Of a stretch of DNA of 64,000 nucleotides, positions 4,949-24,255 are shown piece after piece. Numbering within the stretch: position 1 is the first letter of the stretch; each line of letters opens with the position of its first letter. Below the pieces are notes generated by a model. That model had not been told where the DNA came from and did no database searches. It was given only the letters and a program-made list of their open reading frames with translations. The stretch lies in contig NC_092672.1 in assembly GCF_964355755.1 (NCBI RefSeq), positions 23,184,501 through 23,248,500 on the forward strand, in the 5' to 3' direction. Made by a program: the position numbers and the translations under genes. The stretch is from Antedon mediterranea. Taxonomy: Eukaryota > Echinodermata > Crinoidea > Comatulida > Antedonidae.

Positions 4949-5545
4949 TTATAGCCTAACTGGACCATGATACAGCAAACCAAGTAACGCAATACCAAAA
5001 GCTATATCAACTGCAGGAGTTGTTGCAACTTGCACAAACTTGTTATTGATGGTAGTAGATCCTTGATTTACAGGCGCCTCTTCAACACGTCTACCATTCT
5101 GGTGCTCACTAACTTTTGGTTTATGTGTAGCACATTGTTCATCTGAGCTCTTCTTTTGAGATATTTCATTCCCATCTTTCTTTTGTTCAATGTTTACTAT
5201 GCCTATTGTATTTCCCTCACTTCTACCACTATTACAGTTCAGGTTACCATTTTCATGAAATTGTATTCTAGAATCGGTAAACTTATCTCTCTTGTCGTGA
5301 TCTTCAACTTCTTTACTGGTAAACTTATCTCTCTTGTCGTGATCTTCAACTTCTTTACTGGTAAACTTATCTCTCTTGTCTTGATCTTCAACTTCTTTGG
5401 TGCCATTGCTTGAACTAATCACTGACAGGTTACTGTCATGAGGTTCATTATCCAATGATACTGCTGACAGTATACCTTCTGTTAATATGCTATTGTTTTG
5501 TTGCGATTGTTCATCATTGCATTCTTGCACATCAGAATCAGCAAA
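4949..5545 (-). CDS. MYO19: MYO19 C-terminal tail exon with 14-residue repeats and hydrophobic end
   Basis: Last coding exon, 199 codons including the TAA stop at 4949-4951; acceptor TTTTTACCAG lies just upstream. It is acidic and serine-rich and contains three tandem copies of a 14-residue unit, [14 protein letters not shown] (plus strand about 5271-5396, 42-bp period). The extreme C-terminus, [20 protein letters not shown], is hydrophobic for about 15 residues. In vertebrates the MYO19 tail binds the mitochondrial outer membrane; the hydrophobic end seen here could be the local anchor, but that is inference. Low complexity makes the tail unalignable by eye with human MYO19, so orthology rests on the motor. 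Confidence 0.8.
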   Translation of the reverse strand, partial: FADSDVQECNDEQSQQNNSILTEGILSAVSLDNEPHDSNLSVISSSNGTKEVEDQDKRDKFTSKEVEDHDKRDKFTSKEVEDHDKRDKFTDSRIQFHENGNLNCNSGRSEGNTIGIVNIEQKKDGNEISQKKSSDEQCATHKPKVSEHQNGRRVEEAPVNQGSTTINNKFVQVATTPAVDIAFGIALLGLLYHGPVRL

Positions 5546-8500
5546 CTGGTAAAAATAAATGTTAAATTGTATTAAATTGTATCAAGAAAAAAAAATATTA
5601 GATTAAAAATCATAAACTGAATGTTTATGATGTGAATATGGAGAATATTTCACAAAAATTAACTGATTGACCATTTAATGAAGCGGAACCAAGCACAGGC
5701 AATCTCTCAGTAAATGAAATATACTTTATTCAACATTATTAGTTTTATAACACAGTACATATGATGATGTGTTAATTTAACATCATTAAAGTAAGTACAT
5801 GTAAATGAGGATGTGTTAGTGATGAAGGAACATACTTCACATTGTAAAGTTTGTTGGTGCAGCGAAGATTGAAAATTGTGAGTTTTAAGTAAAAGGCCTA
5901 CCTCGTCTGAATTCAATTCATTTAATTGTTCATCTAACTTGCGTTGGTGTAAACGAATTGAATATCCAATCATAGCATACTGTATGACACGTGCTGCCTC
6001 ATGTCGTCTCTTTACATCTTCTCTCGCCTTCCAGCCTCTCAAACCTACAACATATCAATTCTAATTAGTGACTCAGCATCATAGCATACTGTATGACACG
6101 TGCTGCCTCATGTCGTCTCTTTACATCTTCTCCTGCCTTCCAGCCTCTCAAACCTACAACATATCAATTCTAATTAGTGACTCGGCATCATAGCATACTG
6201 TATGACACGTGCTGCCTCATGTCATCTCTTTACATCTTCTCTCACCTTCCAGCCTCTAAAACCTACAACACATCAATCCGTGACTTACAGTATATAAACA
6301 CATTTAGTTTAATTTTAAAGTGGAGCTACACTCAGACTTTCTCAGCTTATATCATGTTTAAGTATGTTTAATTGAAAGTGATTGCATAAAAAAAACCAGG
6401 AAAATACGGAAATATTTTCCAAAAACTCATTTCTAAAAAATCGGTCAGGAAATAGTGTTTTTTAACACATTACAGTTTTTCAGTAACTTAGGGGTTATTA
6501 GTTTACAATACGTCGCAAAACGCGTTACACTTAGCGACTGACGCGTTTTAGTCGCCGGTCAACGCATTGACGAAATGTCTCCCCTTTGGTAAATTATGTG
6601 TCGAAAAATGGGGAATAAATTTTATACACACAATTAATACGATTTGTTTAGGCCTAAGTAATATTTCCGATAAGAATGTCAGTATAATTTACATGTAACC
6701 TCATGATTTTCACTGTACAACAACAGCATAATAATCTTATCAGATTGCTTTTAACTTTAAGCTAGGGCTAGGCCTAGCTAGCTCAGCCGTCTGCTCAGCC
6801 TAGCTAGCCTTGAATTTTTGTCTAGAGCCTAGAGGCCTATGTATTCATAGGCATGGTCGTTTAGCCCCATTTATCGTTCCTGGGTTTTCTCGCACATTAA
6901 GAATTGTGAAACACAAAATCCTATAGTATACAGAACAAGAGTAGTAAAGAGTAGTAAAGCGATGTGCAAGCTTAGACCTGACTGAAAAGCAACTATTCAG
7001 GCACCCTATCATGGCCCATGGGTAGGCCAAGGTCGGGTGCCAGCAAAACAAACTTCACTGCTGTCAGCCTACTAGCCTATCTAGAGGCCAAGCAGCATCG
7101 GTACATACCTACACTCTAGTAGGCCTAGGCCTAGCTTTATTGAATATATAGCCACGTCTTTCTCAAATCTCGTTAAATTTGACATTTTAGTAATAGTCTC
7201 ATAATCACATTATTACACTGTGAAACATAATAGGGTCACATTCAGAATGTTTTAATATATACTTTTCGCCCGTCAAAAATAACATCGCGACAAAATAACA
7301 GATCGCCAGCTGCAGTAGTGTGATTGTGAAAAATGTCACGTGATCGTACTCCCTAGCAAAATAAAAAACCCAATTGGACCCGAACGGGGGAAAGTGTCTA
7401 TTTACGCAAAATTGCGCAATGTATATGTGATAAAAATACCAGAAATAGAAAGATCTGGAAAAATTACATCAATATACATTTTTTTTTTGGTGAAGAAATG
7501 AATTTTTTAGGATTATTCAAATATACCCCCCTTTTGCATGTAAAATAATAGGAAATTACAAGGTATCCCCCCAAAACGCAAAAAGGCGTGATTTTCAAGA
7601 AAATCGTACTCGTTGAAAAAAAATTCAAAAAAATATGAAGTATAAGGGATGATATTTTTAAATAATAGTTGAAATATATGAAAAATAGTAATTTTCTGGG
7701 TGGAGCTCCACTTTAAAAATGTTAAAATGAATAAAAGTCAAGAATGTAATTGGTAACAGCATAATGCCTGCAAGATATTTGGCAAAACACTATTACAATC
7801 AATACCTGCTTGAATGATGACCACAGCTGCCTCTTGTTTACTTTTGGTTGCCAGGATCTTCCTCCACCATATCTGTATTACACCAGCACTTAAATTGAAT
7901 TCCTTCAATCTTGCAACTTCAAGTTTATCCAACTAAATAAAAAATAACGGAATATAATAAATATACAATGATGCAGATTCTTACTTACTTTTTTACACTG
8001 ACAAGCTAAAAACAAAGTACAGTATTATAATTTGGTGCTACAACTTTTTCATGTTATAAGATAGCAATTTTACTGATTTTCATTGACTTACACACATTAA
8101 TGGGTAATAATTTTTAATAAAATGGTATTTTTAAATTGTGTCAAATTAATTGTTCTTTTCTTTTTTTATATTTATATACTTTTTTAAAAAACAAAAATGC
8201 CTCAATTTTACATAATTATTTAGTCAATTTTGGTGAATTTCATATCTTATACTACAAAAATATTCTTGTAGCACTACTTTAAAAAATAAATGTTTATTTC
8301 ACGACACTCATTCAGCTCTACTGACAAGGTTTATATTATACAGATATTGCCTGCTTAGAGGTGAAATATAACAATTGACATCACAGAGGGAATGATATTT
8401 TTCTCGAGGAACTAAATAATAAGATTGCCTAGTTCACCTTACCTTGCCTAAGTAATAAGACTGCCTAGTTCACCTTACCTTGCCTAAGTAATAAGACTGC

Positions 8501-11500
8501 CTAGTTCACCTTACCTTGCCTAAGTAATAAGACTGCCTAGTTCACCTTACCTTGGCGAAAAATGACCGTATAAAGTCAAATAATTGCTAATGATTCCTTT
8601 GCCATAAAATATTCACTTAAACTAATTAAAATTTAATTTATTCTACTGCAAATATAAAATAATTAAATTATTATTAAACTACTTTTAAGTACCTGTCCCT
8701 CTCTTAGGAATATCTTTGTTTTTCCAAACAAAAAGCTTTTCATTTTATTTTCTTTGTCTGCTTCAGCTAAAACCAGATTCGTAATAACAGCACATTTACT
8801 TTTTGTATCCAAATCTTTTACATCTTCTGAGTTTGACCTTATTAATAATTCATACCTCTTAAGAAAATCACTGTACAACATTCTATAAGAAAATTGTCAT
8901 TATCGTTGAGAATCAAGTATAACAAACAACACACTGGCAAGTATGTTAGTAGGTGTTCAACATGTACAGTATGTACAGGGATATATATAGTATATATTAT
9001 AAACATCACAGGCACAGAATAAATTCTATACCGCCCAGTGATATACTGAAATTTAATTAATTAATTTGAAACGATAAAGATGAGGAAATCTGTGAGAATG
9101 AGAAAAAGTTGCCCCCACTGAGATTCAAACCCAGAACCTTCTGCTTGATATGCAGATATCCTAACCATTAGACCACTGGGGCTTTCATGGTATTGTTCAA
9201 ACTAGATTGGATAGCAATATCACTCTCGGTGTGGTACGGTGGAACAGCACTAGTCCCTCAGTTGTACGCACGCGCACTAGAGATCAAATTGATACGCCCT
9301 CATCTTTTAGTATTAAGTCCTAGAGCAAGCTATTTGATTGGTAATAGTAAAAAATACAATAAAAATACAAATTACGACGCACGATTTTGGTTTTTGCTTA
9401 ATTATTCAATATCGAAAATGTTTAGCCAGCGTATCAAAAACAAAAACAAATAGCTGTAAGCTGACCTGGTAGGGAAGCCAATGTACTGATCTGAATTGTT
9501 TCAAGTGAACTTAACTAACTAGGGTATCAACCAGTCATAGATGGGTGCATTGTTAGTATAAAAAGAACACAAAACAATAGCTGTAAGCTGACCTGGTAAG
9601 GAAGCCTGTTGCACTAATCTCAATTGTTTCAAGAACACCGCAAGCACGTAGTTGATTTATAACATGAGCGTTATCAAAGCTGTCTGGTTGACACTCAAGA
9701 CTTGGTTTGATACAGCGGATGTAGTGAGGTGTTGTTTCATGTAAAGTAGCCATAAGACTGTCCAATGAATTCTAAGATATAAGATACAATTGTTAGATTG
9801 TTACCCCGAAGATTACATGTAAAAACTAAATGGTATCAACCAAAATAAGTATAAGTAAATACAAAATGGATTGAGGAAATATGTCTGATAATCAAAAAAA
9901 AAAATATCTTGCATATATTTATTATTATAAGTTACATTTTCAACAGAAGTTAAAAAAAAATTGGGAAGAAATAATTTGAGTGATCCTGCAGATGTTTATT
10001 TGATTTATTTCAGCATCATAAAAAACAATTTACAGATAAATTACAATTAATATAATATACAGGAAACAAAATATGAAACATCAACAATATACAAAAACAG
10101 GGATGCTGAGGATAACCCATAAAAGGCCTTGTTTCCCTGTTTCTCCTTTTTTCAAGAAAAAGCAAAAACAACAACAAAGCAAAAAAACCTATCTAAATTC
10201 TAAAGCAAGAGCTCAGTCTTGAAGCTATTTTTCCATACTAAATTCATCAAGAGTCTAAATTAAGTTTTGAATGAGTTTCAACTTTCAGGATTCTGTACCT
10301 TAAATTTTGATACCACTGTAGTAGTCTTTTTGCCTTTTGTTTTACTTGGACTCTGAAAAAAATTCATAAAATTAACCTATTTTAGGTTAACACGTTCACT
10401 GCCAAGGCATTTTCCGTAATTTCTGTCCCAGTGCCAAGTCCCGTTTACATATTAAATTACAGTTTGAAAGTGTAACATCTGGTCACAGACTATCATGATG
10501 TCATTCAAAATACGATGGCGGGAAAAACCGTTGAGACGTATAAATACGTCACTGGCAATGGTCCAACAATTTTATTGACTTTGCCAGGAACGTAAATATA
10601 CGTCGGGGATTTTCCGCGCTAAAATCGGTCAAACCTATCATCGAGAGATAAAAACAGTAAACCACACTGAATCATTTCATCCTTTATTATTTTTATTTAC
10701 TATTAGCGCAATTTATGACATGTTTGAGATGATTATATTGAGTGTGAGGGCGCCATCGTATCAACCATATTCAATGCATGAGGGAATAAACACAAACAAA
10801 CATATGACATTTATTTTTAGATTATCGTTTACGTACATCATTCATAAACTGCCATGCGATAATTCCTGTTCCAATCACCACTGCCAGCGATTCTACATAC
10901 AATACAAAAGTGCTACGATTTTGACGTAGTATTACGTCTTGGCAAGTAGCGACACGCAATTTTTGACGTATAAATACGCCGTGGCAGTGAACGTGTTAAA
11001 CAGAACTATTAACATAACTGATGCAAAGGCATTATAAATATCACACATTTATTCTTTGTTTAAAAGTTTCATGATGTAACATTGATGAAGACAGAACTTT
11101 AAAAGCAATGGTATAGTGTTAGTACAGTGTTAGTATGGTGTTACTAGAGTGTTAGTATGGTGTTACTAGAGTTTAGTATGGTGTTACTACAGTGTTAGTA
11201 TGGTGTTACTACATTGTTAGTATGGTGTTACTACATTGTTAGTATGGTGTTACTACATTGTTAGTATGGTGTTACTACATTGTTAGTATGGTGTTACTAC
11301 ATTGTTAGTATGGTGTTACTACATTGTTAGTATGGTGTTACTACATTGTTAGTATGGTGTTACTACATTGTTAGTATGGTGTTACTACATTGTTAGTATG
11401 GTGTTACTACATTGTTAGTATGGTGTTACTACAGTGTTAGTATGGTGTTACTACATTGTTAGTATGGTATTACTACATTGTTAGTATGGTGTTACTACAT

Positions 11501-14500
11501 TGTTAGTATGGTGTTACTACAGTGTTAGTATGGTGTTACTACAGTGTTAGTATGGTGTTACTACATTGTTAGTATGGTGTTACTACATTGTTAGTATGGT
11601 GTTACTACAGTGTTAGTTTGATGTTACTATGGTGTTACTACATTGTTAGTATGGTGTTAGTATAGTGTTACTATGGTGTTTAAAAACAAATGATAAGATC
11701 AATCACCTGTAAACTGGTAACATTAGCATCAACTAATTGTTGCACAAACTTCTTGCTGCTAATTTTAAGCAAATCTACAAGTTCTGCTGGAATACCATCC
11801 TAAAAACATCAAATGATACACAATAGATTAATTAGTAAATGAACATTCACCTGTGTACACTGCACATCAAATCTAAACAAATAATAATCTAATATAATAC
11901 ATTCACATATTCTTGTCAAAGAACAGTGAAGATTTATAAATCGCAATGGAATGAATAAATTCTAGGTAATCTAGCATTTTTGTATTTGAGGATCATATAG
12001 AATGCGTTCACGGTTATACGCTTAACACGCTGCATTGTGTATTGTTCTCACGCAGATAGGCTCAAAACAGGCATATAGCAGTGCGTACTGCGTAGGGCAT
12101 ATCTGATTGGTCGATTGAAAGTCGCTATTTTGTTGGTTCCCTCTCCATAGAGAATCACCTTTTGAACTGCGATAACAGAGCATAATAATAGATAGAGCAT
12201 TACCTATAGCTACAAACAGCCATTCATACATTTTACTGTGGTATTTATTTTCAGTTATAAGATTATGAGAAATGAGTTTAAACGAAGCAGATGCACTATT
12301 CCATAATTGTAATGCTTTGAGAAACTATTTATGAACTTCTAACCCCCTTTTTTTGTGAATATACTGTAAAACTGGCTTTCAGTTGTAAGTATATTACCTT
12401 ATTCTTTTCAATTAGACCATCCACTTGGTACGTAACTTTCTCTGCATAGTGATGCACAACAAAAGCTGGTGATGTCACTGATATATGTGCACGAGATAAG
12501 CTTGCACTGCTGATGGTGTCATAAAGAAACTCACAAAATGAACTTGGATCTGAATGTCTGTTTAACTTGCATTGCTATAAACAAGATAAACTTGCAATTA
12601 GAAAGTAAATGACATAATAACATGATTGTGATCTTAGATGGACAGTCTAAGCACAACAACTTGTAGTTTCAATTCAATTTCAATTCATCGACATTTTTAT
12701 TCCATAATCAAAATAAAAACATATACAAATACAATACAAATAATAAGATAATGGAATGGGATACAAAATAAGCACAAGTGCTTTAAGCATGTAACCCTAA
12801 CAAAAAGATCAAACAATTAGTACAAACAAAAAGAACAAACCAAAATAACATAATGTGATTTACTTAACTTAAATATTTCTATTGTTATAATATTTCTTTA
12901 ATCTCTGTTTAAACAAACTTAAAGTGGGGGATTGTTTTATATAGTCTGTTAAATTGTTCCAAATATGTGTTCCTTGGTAGGAAATACATTGCTGTCCGAC
13001 TTTGGTGCGTTTTAGTTGTGGACAGTAGTTTGACCTGTTTCTAGTTGAGTAATTATGGAATGAGGCAGATGTACTAAATAAGTTATTAAATGATTCAGGT
13101 AATAGATTATGTTTATATTGATACATAAATATAGCAGTGTGTTTCGTATAAAGGTCAAAAATATTTAATGTTTGGGTTGAAATAAAAAGTGGATGAGAAG
13201 GATGCATAAAATGAACATGACAAATATTTCTAAGTGCTTTTTTCTGGAGAATATGTATACGGTTTAAGTTTGTAGCAGAAGTAGCACCCCATACTGTGAT
13301 AGCATACGTTATTCTAGGTAATATAAGTGCATTGTATACCGTTAACAAGATTTTACTTGATAACATAGACTTCACTTTGTTTAAGACACCAATTATTCTA
13401 GAAATACTGTTTGCTACCTCATTTACATGATAATTAAACGATAAAGTTTCATCCAGAAATAAGCCTAGAAATTTAACTTCAGTAGCTTTTACTATACATT
13501 CATTTCCCATCCTCAATTCTAGTGAGGTAGTGTCAGCTGACTTATTTCTAGCCTTAAATATAACATATTTTGATTTGTTTACATTTAGCGTTAATTTGTT
13601 AGCAATAAACCAGTCCGAAAGTATAGATAACTCCTGGTTCATTGTATCAAAAGCTTGAGTAATATCATTGTGACTATAAAACACATTTGTGTCATCTGCA
13701 TACATAATCATCAGTTTGCAACTGGTTGTGGTGTTACTGTACTTTTGCACCTAACTCACTGGGCATAAGGTCACTCACCATCACTGATGTGCAGCAGGTG
13801 AATATTAGGGTTAAGCTTGAGGTGCAAAAGTACATCAGCAGCAGGTTTTCTAGTGTAAACTAGGCTCAAAAGTCCATTATTTATCTTCTTACAAACTACA
13901 GTTTATTTCTTGATTTGGGCAATCAAGACAAACTATGGTTTTAAAGACAAACTATGCCTGTCGGGTAAAAACCACTTTTTTTTCAAAATGTAAAATTCAA
14001 AATAGGAAGGAGTTATTATTTTACGACATACTGTACTACGATTGAGAAAGGCGAATTCTTAATACAGCACTGGGACAACTCATCTTTTTGTTGTCATACA
14101 TGCAGCATGGTTTCATGGTACAGCAGTTTATCTTTCAATAATAAGTACAAACTACAGAATACAGGTTGTCTTTTTCAACCATTATTTTTTGTCTTGCGAA
14201 AAACTATGACTTAGAAACTTATTGTTTGTATTTTAATCGAAAGACAAACTACGACACCCCAATATTCAACATCAAAACATGTTTTATTGTGAGTGGAATA
14301 GCAACACTTACTTGATTCATGAGAGCAAATATACTGATGTTGCCTTCAATAACATCAAAACATGTTTTATTGTCAGTGGAATAGGAACACTTACTTGATT
14401 CATGAGAGCAAATATACTGATGTTGCCTTCAATAACATCAAAACATGTTTTATTGTCAGTGGAATAGGAACACTTACTTGATTCATGAGAGCAAATATAC

Positions 14501-17500
14501 TGATGTTGCCTTCAATAACATCAAAACATGTTTTATTGTCAGTGGAATAGGAACACTTACTTGATTCATGAGAGCAAATATACTGATGTTGCCTTCAATA
14601 ACATCAAAACATGTTTTATTGTCAGTGGAATAGGAACACTTACTTGATTCATGAGAGCAAATATACTGATGTTGCCTTCAATAACATCAAAACATGTTTT
14701 ATTGTCAGTGGAATAGCAACACTTACTTGATTCATGAGAGCAAATATACTGATGTTGCCTTCAATAACATCAAAACATGTTTTATTGTCAGTGGAATAGC
14801 AACACTTACTTGATTCATGAGAGCAAATATACTGATGTTGCCTTCAATAACATCAAGACATGTTTTATTGTCAGTGGAATAGCAACACTTACTTGATTCA
14901 TGAGAGCAAATATACTGATGTTGCCTTCAATAACATCAAGACATGTTTTATTGTCAGTAAAGTCTTCAAATTGCCATGGAATTCCCTCAGATTGACAGTC
15001 ATCCTAAAATAATATAAAGATGACTATTTAATCAGCAGTATGATTATGTTTATAAAGGTTCATCATTATCACTATTAGATAAAAAAAGTGAAAGATAATT
15101 CTCATAAACTTTAATTATTATTGTTATCTTATTATCATTTTATATTGTATTATAATTATACTAGTACTTTGATATTATTAATTGTTTACAAGATTCATTT
15201 GATATCAACTAAAAGAAGTGCCATATTATTTTTCTCCATTTTTTTTAATGAATAAAAGAACTGTTGTTATTATCACTCTTATATGGTGCTAATAAAACAC
15301 TGTTGCACCAACTGTATATTAGCATACTCTATATATAGAAAATAAGTTTGTTGGAATACCTGTTCTGCTTTGAGGAAGTTGTGCACAAAATGTTGCTGAA
15401 GCTTCTCATTTGCATAATTTATGCATAATTGCTCCAAACTGTTAAATGAAAAACTTTCAAATCCGTAGACATCCAGTAGACCAATGTAAGACTGCCAACT
15501 CCTGGCCATGGTACTGTCATTGATGAATCCAACGAGCCAATCAAAAACTCTGAAACATTAAAACATAATTTAGTCAGTCTTCAAAGCTAGTTTTTTTGGT
15601 AAAACCAAAGCAGGGTTGAAAACGTTTGCATGAAAATATTTTCTCCTGTTACATACTAACTACATGACAAAGAAAGAAATTAGGCAGAAAGAAAAAAGTC
15701 AGACCATGACAGCAAGAGAGATTAGGCAGAATAAAAATGAAATTAAAGTGACTATGTATTAGAGTTTGCATGTAATGTATGTTTATTTAATTTTTGTGAA
15801 TGTTTAAAGGTGTATGTACGATTTGTTGTGGACAATCCGCCTCGGTGCAGACCAGCATGCATATGGGGAAGCAAATACAAGTTATTGGATTTGTACAACA
15901 TCTTCTGTGGGTTTGTTTTGAATGTATAACAGGTCAGTAAAAAGGCAAATACTGCACAAGATCATTTTCAAAAGAGTAAATAGGTTTCTTTCACTACAAA
16001 CAAATATAGCTTTAATGTTTGTAAAATACCTGGCAAGCATAGAGTAACTTTGCAAGACAATCTCTCCTTGTATGACATTCATCTTTTAAGCAAGGTTTCA
16101 TAAAGACACTCTTTCTACGCTTGTGAGATGCAGTGATTTGTCGGAATGCAAGACATCTAGTTAAGGCATCAACATCAAGACCAAGTAACTGTGCAGCAGC
16201 ATTAACAGATGTGTCAACTCCTGATGAAGCAACATCAATAGTATTAGTACTATTAGTACAACAATATGATATAAAAAAATATATATATACACACCATCTA
16301 ATAGGATTAATTTACTTTTGTCAATACTAAAGTTTTATATATATATAACTAAGTTTTTGGGCCTCCTCTCATCCACCGGCCTCATAAGCTTTGTAAAATA
16401 TTACTTTACAATTAAAAAGTTTAGATGTTTGATTAATAATAGAGCCGAAGAATGGGAAGAGTGGAGAGCCTGCGATAATCTTCTGTAACATAGATTTGTA
16501 TCACTCTATATTGTGCCTTGACGTGCACAACTGTATTTCCATAAGTTTATAAGAGGGTGTTTATATAGGTGAATTGATTATGTATAATTTTTCTATTTTT
16601 ACTCTGTGTGATGTAATGTCTGCTTTTTTTTGTATTCCAATGTATTAAAGAAAGATTGAAAAAAATTAATAAATAAAAATATGATATATTGAATAATTAG
16701 TAAATTATAAAATCTCTGTTTGGCTGAAATATTTTATCAAAAGAAAGATTTTAAAATGACATAATTAATAACGATATTTTTTTACCAACCTACAATAATA
16801 TTAAGCTATTCCTTATGTCTGTTTTTAGTTATTTCTCATATATTATATTATGATAGAAATAAAAACAAATTAAAAAATACTAAAAAGATATATAAACTGT
16901 TGATAGAATTTTTTGAATAATAAATAAATGCCAATTTAATATAGATTAAAAATTCTAATAAAACCAAAAAAGAATGAAAACTAAACTAGATTTGAACTCG
17001 TCACTTTGACGAGCTCGGGTTATCCGCGCAAACGCAACTTGCACATATTATGTTTAAACTATATGAACGCCAACAATTATTATGCCATCCTATGACATGA
17101 ATTAAATATGTTTACAGTGCTGAATTGTACCTATTTTGTGTCATACAGCATATTACAGTATTTACAGAAAACAATGTATATGTTATATACAGTGTAACAT
17201 ACTGTAGACGAAATTACGAGACCCATCTTTTAAATCCAATTATAAACACAATGACGTCATCAAATTGACATACAGTATAAAGATAACTATTTTAGAAGAT
17301 AATTATCTAAATAATTACTTTAAGACAAATTTGAAGAATTTTGGGCACGTAAAAGTGAGATGCGCTCTCATTTAAACGCGATGAACTTTTACGCAAGAGA
17401 TGAAAATATGACTTTTTGAATTCAACTGGCCATATAATAACGTCATGACATCAGATAGACACAATATGTATATGAATTCAAATCTACAATTCAACAACTT

Positions 17501-20500
17501 TCATAATAAGTTTTAATCATATGGGTCACTTTTCATTACGATGAGCTATAACAGATTAAAATATACTAGGTAAAGATGCAATTAAGTAACTTATGTTATA
17601 TTTTTGTATGATGACGCAATAAAAATTAAATTTGTTGTAACTCATGTGAAAAAGAATTGATTGCGAAAGAACTTATTAAAATCTAGGAGAAAATGGGGTA
17701 CGCATTAGCGCGATGCGCTCTACTAAATTGGATTAACTAGAACAAAAGAGAAAAAAAATCTATTTTAAAAATTTGAGTGGCCATATGGTGACGTCAGAAC
17801 ATCCTGTAGGTACAAATTGTACATGAATTGATATCTACAACTCATTAGCTTCCATAATACATTTAAAAAAACGGGGGTAACCAGCCACTCTGAGGAGCTA
17901 TAACGATTCAAAATAGGTATATTTTTGCACAAATTTGCATTAAATTACCTATTCTTCAGCACATGATTATTAAAGTTTAACGTGCACATGCGTCGTTATT
18001 TTGCAATTAAAGTTCATCAAAATGAATGAAATCTGATACAGAAGGTACAGTATGAAAAGCGAAGATCAATTTCAAAAACCATTTTCCTACTCTTTGTACG
18101 AGCTGTGCGCACAAGTGCGTGCGCAAAACGCAAAAAAATTTGAAAATTTTGAAATGCTTAAAATTGCCAGAAATGTATGCAAAATTAATTAGAAATTGCG
18201 CAATTTAAAATTTCAAATATGTGTACTCACTTAATATTTTGCATAGCTTGCCATTTTTATCATGTTAAACATTGTTCCATATTATTAAATACACTTTTGT
18301 AAAGTTTCATTGAAAAATAAATTTTTGTTCAGAATTTATTATCAACCATACAATTTCATAAAATCGCGCGTAACTTACGCTGTGCGACTGTAAAGTCATG
18401 TAACAAATTTTCTTGCACATATACAGCTACAGGTCAATCATATGACAAAGTTATACAATCTTATGTTGACCAGAATTAGAGATACGCTGCGAGCAAAATT
18501 TGTGTAAAGAAGAATTACATAGAAAAAAAAAAGATCCAGAATATAAAAAAAAGCAACCAATTAAAACTTAAAGGTCGCAACTACTTTAAATTAAACTATA
18601 AATACTGTATGCAATCTTAAAGGTCGCAACTACTTTAAGCTAAACTATAAATACTGTATGCAATCTTAAAGGTCGCAACTACTTTAAGCTAAACTATAAA
18701 TACTGTATGAAAGGTCGCAACTACTTTAAGCTAAACTATAAATACTGTATGCAATCTTAAAGGTCGCAACTACTTTAAGCTAAACTATAAATACTGTATG
18801 CAATCTTAAAGGTTGCAACTACTTTAAGCTAAACTATAAATACTGTATGCAATCTTAAAGCTTGCAACTACTTTAAGCTAAACTATAAATACTGTATGCA
18901 ATCTTTTTATTGGTATAATACAGAAAATAATTAAACAGCATAACCTTGATATCATTTACCTTGTTTTTCAGAATCAATTTCACATGGTCCAGTGACATCA
19001 TCACTAATAAACTCTATATTTCCAAGATGAAGTATACCACTTAGAACCTACAAATAAACACATTTTCAAATTCAATTCAATAATTCAAAAAATAGAATTA
19101 TAACATTACTATTAGATTTATGTATAAAAAACATCAAAGTCTATTATCACTTATTTATATACTGTACTACCATATGGTTTTCATTACCATAAATTTGTAA
19201 AAGTTGTTTTGAATCAATATACTATCATAATTGTAAAAACTAGGTAAAAGTTCACTGATGTTTACTGTCCACATGTGCTGGATTAGTTCAACCAAGGCAT
19301 CTAAACACATTGCTTTGGTTCAGTTACTAATAATATCACCACTAAGTTTAACCATGTTTTACCAGTGAATTCACTCTTCCCTGGTAAAACATGTTTGTTA
19401 AGTAACCAGTTATAATTAAGTAAAAGTTTCTTACTTTAAATAATTCTTGTTGCTGTGACCTGCTAAGTCCAACATTAGACATCGCTTACTAACTAATGAA
19501 GTAAAAGTTTCTTACTTTAAATAATTCTTGTTGCTTTGACCTGCTAAGTCCAACATTAGACATCGCTTACTAACTAATGAAGTAAAAGTTTCTTACTTTA
19601 AATAATTCTTGTTGCTGTGACCTGCTAAGTCCAACATTAGAAATTTCTTACTAACTAATTAAGTAAAAGTTTCTTACTTTAAATAATTCTTGTTGCTGTG
19701 ACCTGCTAAGTCCAACATTACACATTGCTTGCTTTGTAACTATAAAATCTTGTTTATCCTTTTGATTACATGCATCTTCTGAACGGTTTAGTTTCACATA
19801 GTTTAAGTTGTCTGAACTCAATACATTTGGTAGTAACCAGTTCCTCATTTCCCTTTCATTTGCGCCAAACAGCATCTATGATAATTTGAAAGAAGAAATG
19901 TTAATGATATTATTAAAAAGACTAATAATGAGAATAATATAAACTAATAATATATTTCATGCTTTGATAACATTAGTAGAGTGAGTGCTTTCTTGCGCTA
20001 TATTACAAAATATTACAAAGTGACAATTTTGTTTCAAGATGTTTAATATCAGTACCAGAAAGATCCTTTTCACATCTGCCTACATTGATCTCCAGACTTA
20101 TTACATGTTTTCATATTTACTCACGAACCTTGTGAAATCACGGGAAAAGTATTGTCATTGTATAGTTGACGGTGCTATCATTAGTACAATCTCAAGTTTG
20201 TGAGAAAAAAAAAGTCACGCTTCGATACTTTCAAACAGGTGTACGGTCAGTTAAATACCAGGACAAAGCACAAATGCGCAGAACAAACAAAAAAACAGGC
20301 CCCTGTGAATATCAGTAGAATTTTAACAACCTGATTAAAACCAAAGGGTATATGTTTGCTATTAGCCTACTCACTTTAGAAACATGGCAACAGAAATATG
20401 CAAATGTATCACAGTTTCCAGCAGTTAAGTTAAACAGTTGGTTATCCGGTTTAAAGGTACACAAAAATGAAACATAACTAATACTAACTTGGTAAAAGAT

Positions 20501-22977
20501 GTGAAAATTCCTGGCACCATCACATTGATAAACAACTCTAGTTTTCTCAAGAAGATATGTCTGAATAGAAGCACCAACAACATGATTTCCACTGAAAACA
20601 AAATTGTAAAGTTAAAATAAGAATTCCTCTTGTGTGTAATTTCATTCTTCCCTGCTATGACACACAAAATGGCATATGTAGAAACTCAAAATGCATGGCC
20701 TGTATACAGTATGTTGGTTGAACATTGACAAATAAAAATAATGTATGAAACTTACCGACTGAATTGTAGCTGAATGTACTTTCCAAAGCGGCTACTATTG
20801 TGATTCCTGGTTGTGCTAGCATTGCCTACGAAAATGAAATAATAGTTGTCTAACAGAGATGGAGTTGTAGGGAGGTGTAGGGTACTGGGTGGCAAAAGAT
20901 TAATATTACTGTATATATATATACTGGTGCAGGCCATCAAATATTGCCATCAATTGCAATTAATTCTACTAGTCTTAATGATACCAAATCTGCCAAAAAT
21001 TTAATTTGAGCATAAAATCTCACCAAATTCATATTTAGAACATACTGTAAGTTGGCCACTGCTGATCAACAGTTTTAGCCTATATATTATATTAGGAGTT
21101 TAAAGGATTTTGGCACCATGACTGAAGGTTAAAGATTATGCAGGAATTACAAAATGTAAAATCAGTACACAAACTGCTTTAAATTATCATTTTAAATTTC
21201 ATTTTACATAAAGCGTTAATCAATTTTAGGTTAGGTGTAGCTTTATTTATTTATTTTTAAATCAGTATGATATTTATTGACTTTTATATTTCAGTTTTCT
21301 CAGGGAAGAGTTAAATTACAATTTAATTTAACTCTTCCCTGGTTTTCTTGTAATTTTAATGGTACACTATCATTATGCTCATTTTTATTTGGTTCTCATC
21401 TCTTTATCGACTGTTCTTATTCTATTTTTTCTTTATCTGTTGATGATAATGATGATGAATATAGAAAATTTGATATATTGATATGATTTAAAAATTCTGA
21501 TTTTGTATATTTAACAAAAATAAAGGTCCAACTTCTAGCGATCTTTATTAGGACCATAACAGTACATAGATGTTTTTACATTTGAGAATGACATGTGTAT
21601 CTTACTGTACTTTATTAAAGATAAACATAATAATTACCAAATGCTTCAAGAATAGGATTTGAGTCTAATATTCTACGTTCAATGCAATCTGCTGGTGATG
21701 GTGTAAAACCACTATGAACAAAAAAGACAACAAGTTATCACAAATAAGTAACAAAACAGAGACAAATCTATAATTATGATGAAATAAAAACTGTAATTTT
21801 ACATACATGAGATTGTTTAATGATATTAATGTGTTTATTTTTATTACCCAGGGTTACATACTGCCACCATTGTCAGATATTTTAGTAAACATCTTGCATT
21901 CCATGTCTGTAATAAAACAATAATAAATGACAGAGAATAACAAACGTTTTTGTATGCTCACAAAAAATATTGACTAAACTGCATTTGTGAAAATGGGTTG
22001 CCAACATTCCCTCTTTGCACGTCTGGCAAGCATTTATGTGACATTCAATAAATGCTGATTTTGTAACAGTGTCCTTTGAAACAGTAAAAACAAATTATAG
22101 CACTCTCTATTACTTGTCCATGCTTTTAGCCTCTCTATTTTTATTTAAGTTTGGGCCTCTCCATTATTTCAAAATAAACAAGAAATGGTTTTAAAGGTAA
22201 AAAATTGACTCTGATTGCATTGGTGAAAACAAACGTAAAACTGAAATTGTTGAATTACCTTTCCAGAACCACTTTCACCGCTGACAATTATTGACTGATT
22301 AATCTTGTCTAGTCTTCTAGTAAGATTACACAAAGCTGTTTCTGCAATTCCAAATACATGTGGTGGGTGTGCCTGAAAAAAAATAAAATAAAAAGATGTA
22401 TATTCCCCAAAAAACATGAAAATGAGGATTAATAAAATCAAGCCATTTTGCTGTTTTAAAAAAGTTATTCATTTTAAAGAAATAAAAACAAACAAATATA
22501 GTGTTTTTACTTTAAAAAAAGACAAAATTAATGGTTAAACTTAACCAAATGTTAAAAAATTACAGTTTTTCAGGTAAATAATGTTTTTTTTCCAATTTTT
22601 GGTCAAAGTGAATAACTACAGTATTATGTGACATAAAATAGCATATTCAGCAAAACAATTATCTTTTCAGAGGAGCTCTGCATATATCTCTAAGTTCTCA
22701 CTTCTAAGTGCAACTGAGGACATTTTAATATTTTTGCCCAATATTGAAGATAAAGTGAAGTCAAGATTTTAATAGTGATGTCACCAACATATAAATTTTC
22801 CTAAAAATCAATAGTATACTAGCGAATCATTGTTTACCTTTTGATCACTATGGTAACGATGAATCATATGAACATCAAAATGTCCAGTTTCTTTGAAAGG
22901 ATTTAAAGTAACAAGGGTGTTGCCAGTCTGAGTGTGGTATCTACCAGCTAAGTAGCGCTCACGTAAACAGTTCAGCA
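4949..22977 (-). CDS. MYO19: Unconventional myosin XIX (mitochondrial myosin), 5'-incomplete, 19 exons
   Basis: Actin-based motor that in vertebrates attaches to the mitochondrial outer membrane. Exons, in gene order: 22838-22977, 22259-22372, 21848-21906, 21638-21711, 20756-20825, 20489-20591, 19678-19875, 18960-19047, 16030-16220, 15360-15549, 14893-15003, 12398-12574, 11707-11799, 10299-10352, 9593-9771, 8693-8882, 7806-7932, 5902-6044, 4949-5545. Junctions are GT-AG and phase-consistent except 16030/15549. About 965 codons are visible; human MYO19 is 970 residues. Diagnostic stretches are GESGSGKT with [51 protein letters not shown] and [11 protein letters not shown]; the wording around these fits MYO19 rather than class II or V myosins. 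The coding exon(s) before the P-loop exon pair were not found, and several exons carry tandem edge copies. Confidence 0.93.
5902..8882 (-). CDS. MYO19: MYO19 converter and IQ-motif exons 16-18
   Basis: Exon 8693-8882 reads [16 protein letters not shown] and ends [11 protein letters not shown], the converter-to-lever junction of all myosins. Exon 7806-7932 continues [20 protein letters not shown] with [22 protein letters not shown], an IQ-like light-chain site. Exon 5902-6044 gives [21 protein letters not shown] with [14 protein letters not shown], a second IQ-like segment. Phases agree (Q|L, A-G|GT, E|F). Two partial tandem copies of the last exon and its acceptor lie at 6045-6275. The intron 6045-7805 also holds a 1.4-kb inverted-repeat element. 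Confidence 0.9.
5966..6290 (-). repeat. Three tandem copies (109 bp) of a MYO19 exon start with acceptor
   Basis: The functional exon 5902-6044 is followed on the plus strand by two further copies of its 5' part, each with the TACAAC-type acceptor region (starts of the shared CATAGCATAC word at 5971, 6080 and 6189). Copies differ by a few substitutions. In gene sense the copies lie upstream of the real exon and offer extra acceptor sites. They are incomplete exons with no donor. Confidence 0.85.
6313..7718. mobile_element. 1.4-kb element with short terminal inverted repeats, intronic
   Basis: The left end TTTTAAAGTGGAGCT at 6313 and the right end AGCTCCACTTTAAAA at 7704-7718 are inverted and match over about 18 of 19 bases. 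The interior (ACGCG-rich at 6510-6560, AGGCCTAG words, poly-A/T runs) has no coding ORF. Probably a non-autonomous DNA transposon in the MYO19 intron between the IQ exons. Target-site duplication is not clear. Confidence 0.6.
8419..8557. repeat. 36-bp minisatellite, four copies
   Basis: Four copies of a 36-bp unit containing CTGCCTAGTTCACCTTACC and AAGTAATAAGA in a MYO19 intron. Read on the minus strand each unit contains AAGGTAAGG, a good donor-like string, but no adjoining exon was recognised. Confidence 0.9.
9110..9182 (-). tRNA. tRNA-like gene or tRNA-derived SINE head, anticodon ATC by position
   Basis: On the minus strand a 73-nt cloverleaf can be drawn: acceptor GCCCCAG against TGGGGGC (one A-G mismatch), A-box-like TGGTCTAATGG, anticodon stem TCTGC/GCAGA with loop ATATCAA, T-arm CTGGG-TTTGAAT-CTCAG. 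The loop gives anticodon ATC, nominally aspartate, which is unusual for a functional gene. It lies inside a MYO19 intron. A tRNA pseudogene or SINE promoter is as likely as a working tRNA. Confidence 0.5.
9450..9506 (-). repeat. Partial second copy of a MYO19 exon end and donor
   Basis: About 57 bp closely match 9577-9633, which spans the 3' end of MYO19 exon 9593-9771 and its GTCAGC donor. Both contain CTGTAAGCTGACCTGGTA. The copy begins about 127 bp downstream of the real donor in gene sense and has lost part of the exon match after TTTCAAG. Confidence 0.75.
9593..12574 (-). CDS. MYO19: MYO19 motor exons 12-15: lower 50K, loop 2, actin-binding helix
   Basis: Exon 12398-12574 (59 codons) begins [16 protein letters not shown] and contains [22 protein letters not shown], split here only as a description of the HYA-type strand. 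Exon 11707-11799 gives [18 protein letters not shown]. Exon 10299-10352, only 18 codons, reads [18 protein letters not shown]: this is loop 2, lysine-rich as expected for the actin interface. Exon 9593-9771 holds [11 protein letters not shown] and [17 protein letters not shown], the end of the lower 50K domain and the SH1-helix region. Introns between these exons carry a minisatellite, a piggyBac-like MITE and a LINE remnant. Confidence 0.92.
10391..10995. mobile_element. piggyBac-like non-autonomous element (MITE) with TTAA target sites
   Basis: Ends are CACGTTCACTGCCA and, inverted, TGGCAGTGAACGTG, each bordered by TTAA (10387-10390 and 10996-10999). TTAA duplication and this kind of terminus are typical of the piggyBac superfamily. 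Internal ACGTATAAATACG and GTAAATATACGTC words repeat near both ends. About 605 bp, no transposase ORF. Inserted in a MYO19 intron. Confidence 0.85.
11101..11680. repeat. 22-bp minisatellite (TGTTAGTATGGTGTTACTAC type)
   Basis: About 25 tandem copies of a 22-bp unit, TGTTAGTATGGTGTTACTAC plus AT or AG, with shorter variant units at both ends. It ends about 25 bp from the donor of MYO19 exon 11707-11799. Confidence 0.95.
12668..13750 (-). pseudogene. 5'-truncated CR1/L2-like non-LTR retrotransposon (reverse transcriptase C-terminal part)
   Basis: An ORF of about 293 residues (12869-13750) begins just before the RT catalytic box, MYADDTNVF, and continues with [12 protein letters not shown], a [17 protein letters not shown]-type thumb region, YAITVWG and a C-terminal IWNNL segment. 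This order is that of CR1/L2-like RTs. The EN domain and RT fingers are missing (5' truncation). The 3' end carries a short TTGAA-type tail near 12668-12690. The coding frame is intact over the remnant, suggesting a fairly recent insertion in the MYO19 intron. Confidence 0.85.
13739..13834. repeat. Short inverted repeat at the LINE 5' breakpoint
   Basis: GTACTTTTGCACCT at 13739 is mirrored by AGGTGCAAAAGTAC at 13821. The left copy coincides with the 5' breakpoint of the LINE remnant, so an inversion formed during insertion is possible. Confidence 0.6.
14268..15003 (-). repeat. 83-bp tandem array of a MYO19 exon end with eight donor sites
   Basis: Nine starts of the same unit (14268, 14351, 14434, 14517, 14600, 14683, 14766, 14849, 14932). 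The last lies in exon 14893-15003; the others repeat the exon 3' part, CTCATGAATCAA, its donor GTAAGTGTT and some intron. Eight donor strings result, at 14892, 14809, and every 83 bp down to about 14311. Because 83 is not a multiple of three and the next unit meets TGA, use of a downstream donor would truncate the protein. Confidence 0.92.
14893..16220 (-). CDS. MYO19: MYO19 motor exons 9-11: switch II and relay; one junction out of phase
   Basis: Exon 16030-16220 reads [19 protein letters not shown] and ends [14 protein letters not shown] plus CQ. Exon 15360-15549 opens with [11 protein letters not shown] and carries the switch II segment [10 protein letters not shown], then [19 protein letters not shown]. 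Exon 14893-15003 reads [20 protein letters not shown] and ends ISIFALMNQ. The first junction does not keep frame: the donor exon ends in phase 0 but the acceptor exon opens with one leftover base, giving an early stop. Four bases (plus-strand GGCA, 16032-16035) account for the mismatch, because without them the exon would end in the expected phase after LLYA. This may be a sequencing error, an allele or a disabling insertion. Confidence 0.9.
16976..18540. mobile_element. Dispersed element with tRNA-like end and repeated TGACGTCA modules, copy A
   Basis: Its left end (ACTAGATTTGAACTCGTCAC, then GGTTATCCGCGCAAACGC) recurs inverted at 62818-62878, the end of copy B. Read from the other strand this end has an A-box-like GCGCGG.GGATAA and a B-box-like GAGTTCAAATCTAG. 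The interior has four modules, each with a GACGTCA-like palindrome, about 170 bp apart (about 17271, 17440, 17609, 17790). The distal end is approximate. No ORF. Confidence 0.6.
18567..18903. repeat. 49-bp minisatellite, seven copies
   Basis: Seven copies of a 49-bp unit with AAAGGTCGCAACTACTTTAA and ATAAATACTGTATGCAATC; the fourth is shortened. Late copies change GGTCGC to GGTTGC or GCTTGC. Intronic in MYO19. Confidence 0.93.
18960..20825 (-). CDS. MYO19: MYO19 motor exons 5-8: switch I and upper 50K region
   Basis: Exon 20756-20825 holds switch [10 protein letters not shown], followed by YIQLQFSR. Exon 20489-20591 reads [17 protein letters not shown] and ends at NFHIFYQ. Exon 19678-19875 has exactly 66 codons ([16 protein letters not shown] to [10 protein letters not shown]) and starts with an ATG codon that is internal to the protein, since it joins in phase 0 to the preceding exon. 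Exon 18960-19047 gives [13 protein letters not shown], the conserved helix-loop after the upper 50K domain. All four junctions agree in phase. Three extra copies of the 19678 exon end lie downstream of it. Confidence 0.92.
19428..19720 (-). repeat. 81-bp tandem copies of a MYO19 exon end with four donors
   Basis: The 3' part of exon 19678-19875 ([11 protein letters not shown]) and its donor GTAAGAAAC occur four times: donors at 19671-19677 (real), 19590-19596, 19509-19515 and 19428-19434. The period, 81 bp, is a multiple of three, but read-through meets a TAG shortly after the first donor. Copies are nearly identical, with a G/T change in one. Confidence 0.9.
21301..21341. repeat. Perfect 18-bp hairpin
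   Basis: CAGGGAAGAGTTAAATTA is followed after five bases by its exact reverse complement. It lies in a MYO19 intron. Could be the core of a small foldback element; function not known. Confidence 0.85.
21638..22977 (-). CDS. MYO19: MYO19 motor exons 1-4 seen: start of motor, P-loop
   Basis: Exon 22838-22977 reads [17 protein letters not shown] then [15 protein letters not shown], the conserved strand-and-loop before the P-loop of myosin heads; it starts in mid-codon, so at least one upstream coding exon exists. Exon 22259-22372 (38 codons) reads [12 protein letters not shown] and ends exactly at the P-loop GESGSGK. Exon 21848-21906 supplies the threonine and [16 protein letters not shown]; a GTATGT site inside it is rejected because only the later donor at 21847 keeps phase with the next exon. 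Exon 21638-21711 gives [18 protein letters not shown], the segment leading to switch I. Confidence 0.92.
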
Positions 22978-23125
22978 CTATGAACAGAAAAACTTAGGTT
23001 AAGAACAAGTGTGTTGCCAGTTTGAGTGTGGTATCTACCAGCTAAGTACCGCTCAAGTGTGTTGCCAGTCTGAGTGTGGTATCTACCAGCTAAGTACCGC
23101 TCACGTAAACAGTTCAGCACAACGA
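22921..23125 (-). repeat. Tandem partial copies of the MYO19 exon 22838-22977
   Basis: The exon segment [17 protein letters not shown]-like (real copy at about 22917-22977) recurs at about 23014-23056 and 23057-23125. The outer copy also repeats the GTTCAGCAC start and the AACAGAAA acceptor region, though with AACGAACAG in place of ATGAACAG so its AG is lost. The copies join directly onto a LINE remnant. Confidence 0.85.
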
Positions 23126-23681
23126 ACAGAAATATTAGGTTAAGTAACAAGTGTGTTGTTCTATCTGTTAATTTAATATCTATCATCTTTCGCAACATTT
23201 TCCTGTGATATATATCTATACTCTCTTGTAATTTTTTGTTTAGTACCCAGAGTTCACTGTTATATAAGAAAATACTTGCTCTGTATGCGTCAAACAAACG
23301 GGATTTCACGTCTATAGACATCGTTTTGTGTTCTAGCGACGGCTTCAGCTTGTTATATGCCATAGCTGCTAGTGATTTTCTTCTTTCTCCATTATTGTTC
23401 GTTTTTCCTTTACCATATCTTCCTACACATTGTGGGTAATCATGATGGCTGTCCCCCGTTTTTGCATTCATATCTCCAGCTAATATTAGGATATCTCTGT
23501 TTTTTGCTTCATTTAATGCTTCTTGTACTTCGTCTACTATACTACTATGCATGACAGAGAGAATATCAACAGCATTTTCCTTTACCTTTTTAAAACGACA
23601 TGCTGGTTTCTTTTTAACTTGGGGTGGAAAGCATCTAGGCCTAGATTTAGTAATAATCTGAAAAAAATAGCGAAATTCCAA
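23126..23681 (-). pseudogene. Internally deleted non-LTR retrotransposon remnant
   Basis: One open frame contains endonuclease text, DILILAGDMNAKTGD and GRYGKGKTNNNGE, then jumps directly to RT C-terminal text, SIDVKSRLFDAYRASIFLYN and SELWVLNKKL. The RT catalytic core between them is missing. The endonuclease N-terminal part is also absent. The frame runs on into the MYO19 exon copies, which is a chance read-through rather than a real protein. Confidence 0.75.
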
Positions 23682-23699
23682 ATTTTTACAAACAAATTT

Positions 23700-24255
23700 T
23701 TATGAACATATAACCACTTGTGACCTAGCCTAGCTAGGAATTTAAATGGTTAGCAGAAAAGTGTAGTCGGTCTGATTTGATTTGAATTGATTAGAAAATC
23801 ATCATAAAAAATACATACAAAAGAAAGTGATAACATAAATTACTGACATTACAAATAATACAATTATAAAAGATTTTGCAGGATAGCTCAAAAAGCTTAG
23901 GCCTAAATAAACATTCATCCCTTATAGTACCAGACAAATATTGACCAGAACCAGCAATCAGCAACGCTCCATACCGAACACCCGATTTTATCGGAACCAA
24001 AATAAAACGTTATCGATTTTACCATTATATCAAACATAAAACTACCGCATTGGGCCCTGCGCTAATATGATCGGGCCCAGCAAATGAGACGATAGAGACC
24101 AAACTGGTTCCTAACACATGAGACGATCGGGCCAACGCATGAGACGATTGGGACCACGTTTTCTGGGCCCAAGACGATCGGGCAGCAAATAAAAACAATT
24201 TACTGTGATAACCGGCCTAGACTTAGGTTAGGCCTAATATAGTAATAATACGATT
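23700..24255. other. Gene-free stretch with repeated GAGACGATCGGGCC words
   Basis: No coding signal. Around 24050-24185 the word GAGACGATCGGGCC or a variant recurs four to five times, with GGGCCC motifs, suggesting debris of an inverted-repeat element. Confidence 0.5.

Follow-up and report, generated by a model that had tools for sequence, protein, structure and literature searches.

The splice-site-bearing tandem arrays of a MYO19-like myosin gene family are probably minisatellites that arose within the gene and cross exon edges by coincidence. They look ordinary and seem to call for no new mechanism. The evidence requires no function for them.

Exon-edge arrays in a broken myosin gene copy

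The window, the whole 64-kb stretch of DNA analysed, holds one copy of this gene, and all internal edges of its recognisable exons are GT/AG (Table 1). Its 5′ coding exons are missing, and it carries a frameshift. The window copy is therefore broken. A string search of the window did not find the strings of the paralogues' two upstream exons. The class label MYO19 (class XIX myosin) is putative and based on motor motifs. A Pfam search with the reading of the related copy at 22.08 Mb identified a myosin motor with an IQ motif (PF00063 Myosin_head, E = 4.7e-182; PF00612 IQ, E = 0.00018). Among the 60 of 150 PDB sequences listed there was no MYO19-named chain, and myosin Va was the best there. 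A search of open-access literature on MYO19 and gene family expansion gave no paper on this subject by title. The first-pass annotation spoke of one MYO19 gene, which is wrong, as at least 21 related loci span 19.6–25.1 Mb of a single chromosome, C3. Five further loci lie on C5, and the DNA of four of these was examined.

That annotation also assigned duplicated edges and splice sites to five exons, and for four of them this is borne out. The array A unit comprises the last 66 nt of its exon, the donor and 17 nt of intron, giving the eight donors that had been proposed (14893, 14810, 14727, 14644, 14561, 14478, 14395 and 14312). Array B has the four donors expected (19678, 19597, 19516 and 19435). 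The array E unit comprises the acceptor and the first 76 nt of its exon, with three acceptors as claimed (6044, 6153 and 6262). Units within A, B and E match one another at 95–99%. At site D the single extra copy, missed by TRF, lies 127 bp downstream and is diverged; its donor at 9466 brings the total to two. The fifth exon had been credited with three acceptors. Extra copies of its start are present (23006–23119), but none has an intact acceptor: GTTG replaces the real ATAG, or the edge is missing. This leaves a single acceptor at that exon in the window.

Table 1. Features of the myosin gene copy in the window (window positions)
Feature	Positions	Strand	Basis or remark
MYO19-like myosin gene copy, 18 recognisable exons	4952–22977	−	Exon model
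Coding array in last exon, 42-bp unit, in frame (14-aa repeat × 3), away from splice edges	5276–5398	−	TRF, exon model
Array E, 109-bp unit × 2.8	5969–6277	−	TRF; precedes exon 6044–5902
Intronic array, 36-bp unit × 4	8412–8554	−	TRF; unit number differs between sister copies
Site D, end of exon 9771–9593 with donor and one diverged extra copy	9448–9633	−	Sequence comparison
Intronic array, 22-bp unit × 25.6	11111–11673	−	TRF
Intronic stretch, most of a putative retroelement-like reading frame (by eye)	12670–13712	−	Absent from paralogues L001 and L002
Array A, 83-bp unit × 8.3	14268–14958	−	TRF; crosses end of exon 15003–14893
4-nt insertion (frameshift), end of exon 16220–16030	16030–16045	−	Comparison with L002 and the 25.12-Mb copy
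Intronic array, 49-bp unit × 7	18567–18905	−	TRF
Array B, 81-bp unit × 3.9	19413–19730	−	TRF; end of exon 19875–19678, donor and intron start
Array C, extra copies of start of exon 22977–22838	23006–23120	−	Unit of about 95 bp in paralogues

Breakpoints had further been said always to fall across a splice junction. This holds for selected cases, since three arrays in the same gene copy are wholly intronic and one lies inside a coding exon (Table 1). The host animal genome is rich in short tandem repeats. Two other elements in the window were searched against Pfam: a putative retroelement-like frame near 23.5 kb had no match, and neither did a frame at 59978–60655 that looked death-effector-like by eye and was left unnamed. 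In the genome, the UCH family, taken as a second control family beside the kinesins, has 71 matches.

Unit number varies between paralogues and sister copies

Edges A to E carry 1–8 units in about 20 paralogues. An ungapped scan misses or splits units with indels, and its counts are lower bounds where this occurs (C, D and a few loci at B and E). Paralogue counts at site D, obtained separately, go up to 7. Loci with a single, clean unit occur at A, B, D and E; the only two with one unit at C are truncated. A sixth edge, site F, is lost from the window. Its unit counts cover three completely read paralogues, each with 14–17 units, out of 193 matches overall, and three copies have 14–16 exact donor strings.

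The sister copies at 22.08 and 23.85 Mb differ by 42 mismatches in about 13.9 kb (about 0.3%). Their arrays also differ in length by whole units, by 79, 122 and 330 bp at three exon edges, by 308, 103 and 38 bp at three places in introns and by 84 bp in a coding array, and seven of nine length changes of at least 10 bp correspond to array units. Edge, intronic and coding arrays are thus alike in this respect, and the edge arrays behave as ordinary minisatellites.

Placement of arrays relative to exon edges

The arrays themselves are beyond chance, given the matches between units at A, B and E and their recurrence in paralogues. Their placement on exon edges in the family is only marginally so. 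Of the 13 arrays in the family, six cross an edge, against 2.70 expected in a post hoc permutation (P = 0.032), or 2.99 with frame-breaking placements excluded (P = 0.052, also post hoc). The 13 are a hand-made union over the window and two paralogues, and in this permutation the edges of two upstream exons are off by about 1 base. For the window alone, five of eight arrays cross an edge (P = 0.014). Since edge crossing in the family is about twice the random expectation, a local preference may exist, which weighs against the minisatellite explanation.

The kinesin genes examined have 15 arrays, of which 2 cross an exon edge against 1.58 expected (P = 0.49). This sample is small and non-random (25 best-matching loci plus 20 hand-chosen stretches, covering 39 intervals and 106,471 bases). 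Its exon edges are approximated by the ends of HMM matches (119 of 134 used, 103 inside the examined DNA). An 8-bp criterion flagged one crossing array, and the second, on C7, was added by eye with about 7 nt of exon in its unit. Kinesin arrays thus cross edges at the random rate, which shows no general exon-edge preference and leaves genome-wide specificity unsupported by this sample. Two unrelated kinesin genes do have edge arrays (L108, 22 acceptor matches at a 70-bp period; L138, 11 at 50 bp). These two genes are located at C5:31.794 Mb and C7:0.4365 Mb.

These counts bear on whether exon edges are mutational hot spots, with breakage or slippage at strings resembling splice sites or at DNA structures coupled to splicing, such as R-loops and stalled forks. 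The family excess is what such hot spots would produce, and the site F junction, where GTAAG meets AAGAGG, falls within the donor consensus. However, that excess comes from a post hoc count in the very gene that raised the question, kinesin genes do not repeat it, and between sister copies the arrays in introns and in coding sequence change just as edge arrays do. We therefore regard hot spots as unlikely. It is similarly doubtful that the family's exon edges are true duplication hot spots of a splice-site- or splicing-linked process and that, in addition, the spliceosome reliably picks the exon-proximal site among up to about 20 near-identical competitors.

Splice-site integrity and coding constraint

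Units at sites A, B, D and F contain a donor. In the ungapped scan of the paralogues, extra donors retain GT in 12/12 copies at A, 35/39 at B and 26/29 at D, and extra acceptors retain AG in 24/24 at E and 60/75 at C. Pooled over the five sites, 157 of 179 extra copies have an intact splice dinucleotide. The coding parts of the units were compared by pN/pS summed over the five sites. Of the 279 units, 25 that differed from their site consensus by more than 12% were left out beforehand, including 15 extra copies at C. The ratio is 0.40 for exon-proximal segments (bootstrap 0.29–0.58) and 1.28 for extra copies (0.96–1.83). By this measure the exon-proximal copy appears to evolve as coding sequence and the extra copies do not. 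The contrast indicates that the exon-proximal copy is probably the translated one and that the extra copies would go untranslated. We infer that splicing may ignore the decoy sites.

Several observations count against the minisatellite explanation or limit it. Extra copies at site E are no more diverged than exon-proximal ones (1.86 versus 2.40 mismatches per 100 bp). The exon-proximal acceptor AG there is intact in just 18 of 23 copies in the ungapped scan, the failures being three plus one C5 copies and one C3 copy. Exon-proximal segments at site B have zero synonymous changes and hence give no ratio. Over the entire site-B exon, pN exceeds pS (2.18); the whole-exon ratios leave out seven exon pieces that were gapped or truncated.

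Intact splice dinucleotides in most extra copies, together with copy number that varies between paralogues, could also mean that the arrays are selected as splicing regulators, with decoy number setting the productive share of splicing. Recent copying alone predicts intact GT and AG, though, without any selection. The extra copies are free of coding constraint, which is nonetheless compatible with selection on splice sites, and most C3 loci have a single unit at site E (14 of 20) and at site A (14 of 19). Regulation by the arrays is accordingly quite improbable.

Origin of the arrays

All units read are unspliced genomic sequence, on the same strand, head-to-tail and beside their source exon. 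At two sites the breakpoints fall at short imperfect repeats. A minisatellite origin would begin with the tandem duplication, at the DNA level, of a short segment (about 50–130 bp) spanning a splice junction, at those two sites presumably between the imperfect repeats. Copy numbers suggest that the arrays then expanded and contracted by unequal exchange or slippage, and that amplification of the whole gene spread and reshuffled them. Extra splice sites would end up in the intron, and the exon-proximal end would retain an intact exon with its own splice site. Edge duplications would be tolerated because that intact exon stays in place.

The first-pass annotation suggested a mechanism common to the arrays, either replication slippage at splice-site-like strings or retro-insertion. 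DNA-level duplication with slippage or unequal exchange is upheld by the unspliced head-to-tail units, the whole-unit changes at about 0.3% divergence and the imperfect repeats. Specificity for splice sites is not, given the like changes in intronic and coding arrays and the random rate in kinesin genes. Assembly is difficult for tandem arrays and for near-identical paralogues, but an assembly artefact is highly improbable, as about 20 separately placed paralogues share the arrays, with differing unit numbers and point differences, and like arrays occur in unrelated kinesin genes. Retro-insertion of partly spliced RNA beside the source exon, for which we found no supporting evidence, can practically be dismissed: unspliced tandem units argue against it, no exon–exon join or poly(A) tail occurs in any unit read, and no unit lies outside copies of its own gene among the best candidate matches listed.

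Implications

Duplicated-splice-site constructs serve to study splice-site choice. The arrays are natural constructs of this kind, with 8 to about 20 near-identical donors or acceptors in a row in equal local context, and the roughly 20 paralogues, with 1, 2, 3, 8 or more units, already amount to a dose series. Contrasting the pN/pS of exon-proximal copies with that of extra copies provides an RNA-free way to infer the translated copy. For minisatellite-rich genomes we suggest an annotation rule, that exon-edge arrays are tolerated because duplication leaves one intact exon.

Comparison with known systems

The minisatellite of human IFI6 (6-16) reportedly supplies multiple splice donor sites, as Turri, Cuin and Porter are said to have described in 1995. 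Its unit is said to be shorter, with several of its donors used. The myosin arrays likewise multiply a splice donor, with a longer unit and with donors known from DNA alone.

In potato RdRp, a tandem genomic duplication with splice signals is described as giving a new intron (PMC4974935). The myosin arrays are also tandem genomic duplications with splice signals near an exon; a new intron arises in potato, whereas ours are seen at the genomic level only. Break repair with Pol alpha-primase fill-in yields small tandem duplications (PMC8355091). This general source could supply the first duplication here, although splice sites, a feature of our arrays, go unmentioned in that paper's abstract.

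The closest known system comes from human genes of recent duplication, whose exon–intron boundaries carry variable internal tandem repeats (De Grassi and Ciccarelli 2009, PMC2812944). Those units average 30 bp, are repeated 4 times, and can alter the transcript or make new introns. Units here measure 79–128 bp, in up to 17 copies at six edges of one gene; unlike what is reported there, most carry an intact splice site, and the decoys are seemingly unused. In both systems, boundary minisatellites vary among highly similar paralogues that lie mostly on the same chromosome. Here too an array crosses the exon–intron boundary and its unit number differs between recent paralogues.

Exon-edge arrays in the window's myosin gene

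The myosin gene, putatively MYO19 on its motor motifs, occupies the minus strand at 22977-4952, where 18 exons were placed with GT/AG at the internal edges. As read from the 22.08-Mb copy, the protein has a Myosin_head domain and one IQ motif (Pfam), and by eye the protein's terminal stretch resembles a membrane anchor. Six exon edges of the family bear tandem arrays. The units at sites A, B, D and F combine an exon end with its donor, and those at sites C and E an exon start with its acceptor.

At site A the real donor, 14893, is accompanied by seven more in extra units on the intron side, from 14810 to 14312. Extra-unit donors also lie at 19597, 19516 and 19435 (site B) and at 9466 (site D), and extra-unit acceptors at 6153 and 6262 (site E). 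Read in the extra units, these positions bear out the first-pass annotation, which had described repeated donors at A, B and D and repeated acceptors at E. It had placed repeated acceptors at exon 22977-22838 (site C) too, where the extra copies (23006-23119) are in fact exon start without the acceptor AG. Its statement that breakpoints always cross a splice junction holds only for the cases chosen, since the same gene contains three wholly intronic arrays (units of 36, 49 and 22 bp) and a 42-bp in-frame array inside the last coding exon. In the window (8412-8554) and in paralogues, the 36-bp unit itself contains TTACTTAG, which resembles an acceptor, and a few bases away the donor-like CAAGGTAAG. 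The coding array (5276-5398), a 14-aa repeat, has 3 units here versus about 5 in the 23.85-Mb copy.

Tandem arrays at exon edges of the myosin and kinesin genes
Feature	Position	Strand	Unit and basis
Site A array	14268-14958	-	83 bp; Tandem Repeats Finder
Site B array	19413-19730	-	81 bp; Tandem Repeats Finder
Site E array	5969-6277	-	109 bp; Tandem Repeats Finder
Site C pair	23006-23103	-	48 bp; Tandem Repeats Finder
Kinesin edge array (L108, L112)	C5:31794088-31795522		70 bp x 20.5; acceptor and about 20 nt of exon start
Kinesin edge array before its exon (L138)	C7:436514-437065		50 bp x 11; acceptor and about 7 nt of exon

The window's myosin copy is broken. Paralogues at 25.12 and 22.08 Mb have two further upstream coding exons (VWIH-EKEVWVPACV and DDLVL-NPLSEPAG), and the strings of both were not found in the window. 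Four additional bases at the end of exon 16220-16030 shift the frame relative to paralogue L002 and the 25.12-Mb copy. Retroelement-like fragments were seen by eye at 12670-13712 and 23160-23740; the second, for which Pfam gave no match, sits at the expected place of the missing 5' exons. Directly downstream of the gene lies a 64-bp satellite (422-4624; 65.5 copies, 97% match).

Segmental amplification on C3

The window's contig, C3, carries a large segmental amplification at 19.6-25.2 Mb. The genome that contains the window (354 Mb in 18 contigs) was queried with each of five exon edges. Full-length or near-full-length C3 loci numbered 19 each for A and B and 20 each for C, D and E, all within this interval and, with one exception, on the minus strand. 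Grouped by position, the matches form 21 related loci, 18 of them with all five sites, rather than the one MYO19 gene first described. Site E matches five additional places on contig C5. Searched as protein, one motor exon matched 19 copies on C3, of which one contains a stop, together with nine distant matches (44-67% identity) elsewhere. The reading frame at window 59978-60655 has at least 8 other copies (94-95%) at C3 19.97-25.11 Mb, so duplication in the region took in more than myosin. Across the 5.5 Mb, at least 21 myosin loci are accompanied by nine or more copies of this unrelated frame, counting the window's, and their relative orientation is mostly fixed.

Unit numbers among paralogues

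The arrays are real and well replicated across paralogues. At site A, 14 of 19 loci hold one unit (in four of them alongside roughly 27 bp of a second copy), three hold two, one holds three and the window holds eight; the 22.74-Mb copy has its own 82-bp, three-unit form. Site B ranges from 1 to 5 units. More than one unit is present at site C in 18 of 20 loci, the remaining two being truncated at that edge, at site D in 18 of 20 (maximum 7), and at site E in 6 of 20 on C3 (maximum 8), with two units in three of the four C5 loci fetched. The site F array is absent from the window. Its unit, the final 75 nt of the exon followed by GTAA, recurs 17.0, 13.8 and 14.8 times (Tandem Repeats Finder) in three fully read paralogues, which contain 16, 14 and 15 exact donor strings; 193 genome matches were reported, at C3 loci only among the matches listed.

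In the unduplicated intron at site A, CAGCAAAATACA resembles the exon string CTGACAATAAAACA at the unit start, and the site F junction falls within GTAAG/AAGAGG. Such short imperfect homology at the A and F breakpoints is consistent with slippage or unequal exchange.

Edge arrays change as intronic and coding arrays do. Comparison of the 22.08-Mb copy with the 23.85-Mb copy gives 42 mismatches over about 13.9 kb of gene body, and 70 in 15,489 over the whole alignment, diverged last exon included. From the site F array onward the two show nine length differences of at least 10 bp, seven of which are array units: at the edges, one unit each at F and D and three at E; in introns, four units of 77 bp, about three of 36 bp and about one of 42 bp; in coding sequence, two of 42 bp. 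The other two measure 91 bp and 1,547 bp.

Position of arrays relative to exon edges

Pooling the window with two paralogues gave 13 arrays with units of at least 30 bp, which were placed at random in a collapsed 11.9-kb myosin gene. An edge was crossed by 6 of the 13, a post hoc count on the gene that prompted the question. At a margin of 4 bp the expected mean is 2.70 (P(>=6) 0.032), or 2.99 (P 0.052) with frame-breaking placements within exons excluded. Since no more than 4 nt of the site F unit is intron, widening the margin to 10 or 15 bp leaves five crossing arrays (means 2.23 and 1.83; P(>=5) 0.053 and 0.022, respectively). Taken by itself, the window has 5 of 8 (mean 1.77; P 0.014).

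The control comprised 106,471 bases in 39 stretches surrounding kinesin exons, with arrays counted from a unit of 28 bp upwards. Two of 15 cross an edge (expected 1.58; P(>=2) 0.49). The C5 array precedes an exon coding GSERQSKTG; its repeated part was found nowhere else, the other match being another kinesin's exon. Exon-edge arrays thus exist outside the myosin family too, about as often as random placement predicts. Array density at the same unit threshold is about ten in roughly 17.7 kb in the 22.08-Mb myosin copy versus 15 in 106 kb for kinesin.

Exon-proximal and extra units

With sites A-E pooled, pN/pS in the exon-derived part is 0.40 (bootstrap over loci 0.29-0.58) for the exon-proximal unit, which lies at the real exon, and 1.28 (0.96-1.83) for the extra units. 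The extra-unit ratio fell below the exon-proximal one in 0 of 300 bootstraps. All five whole exons across the family give 0.40, with seven gapped or truncated exon pieces left out; two copies have an internal stop. Single sites are uneven. Exon-proximal segments at site B are without synonymous change and the whole-exon ratio there is 2.18, and at site E the extra units are overall no more diverged than the exon-proximal. Decoys that are not used would be expected to produce this overall contrast.

At site E an ungapped scan finds the exon-proximal AG intact in 18 of 23 copies, the failures being four on C5 and one on C3. In three of the C5 loci (L019, L020 and L021) it reads AT, not AG, at the exon-proximal acceptor, and the upstream duplicate keeps AG; these are possibly pseudogene fragments.

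The eight edge-array units measure 79, 95, 81, 83, 128 and 109 bp in myosin and 70 and 50 bp in the kinesins. Seven of the eight are not a multiple of three, and in the 81-bp unit reading from the exon meets a stop in the intron part. Splicing at a decoy would therefore shift the frame or terminate it.

Relation to known repeats

The arrays are largely explained as minisatellites of an amplified, repeat-rich region. Their useful aspect is that they form a natural series of competing splice sites. De Grassi and Ciccarelli (2009, PMC2812944) describe variable tandem repeats at exon-intron boundaries in human paralogues of recent origin that mostly share a chromosome. The myosin edge arrays are of the same kind, with longer units, more units and more edges.
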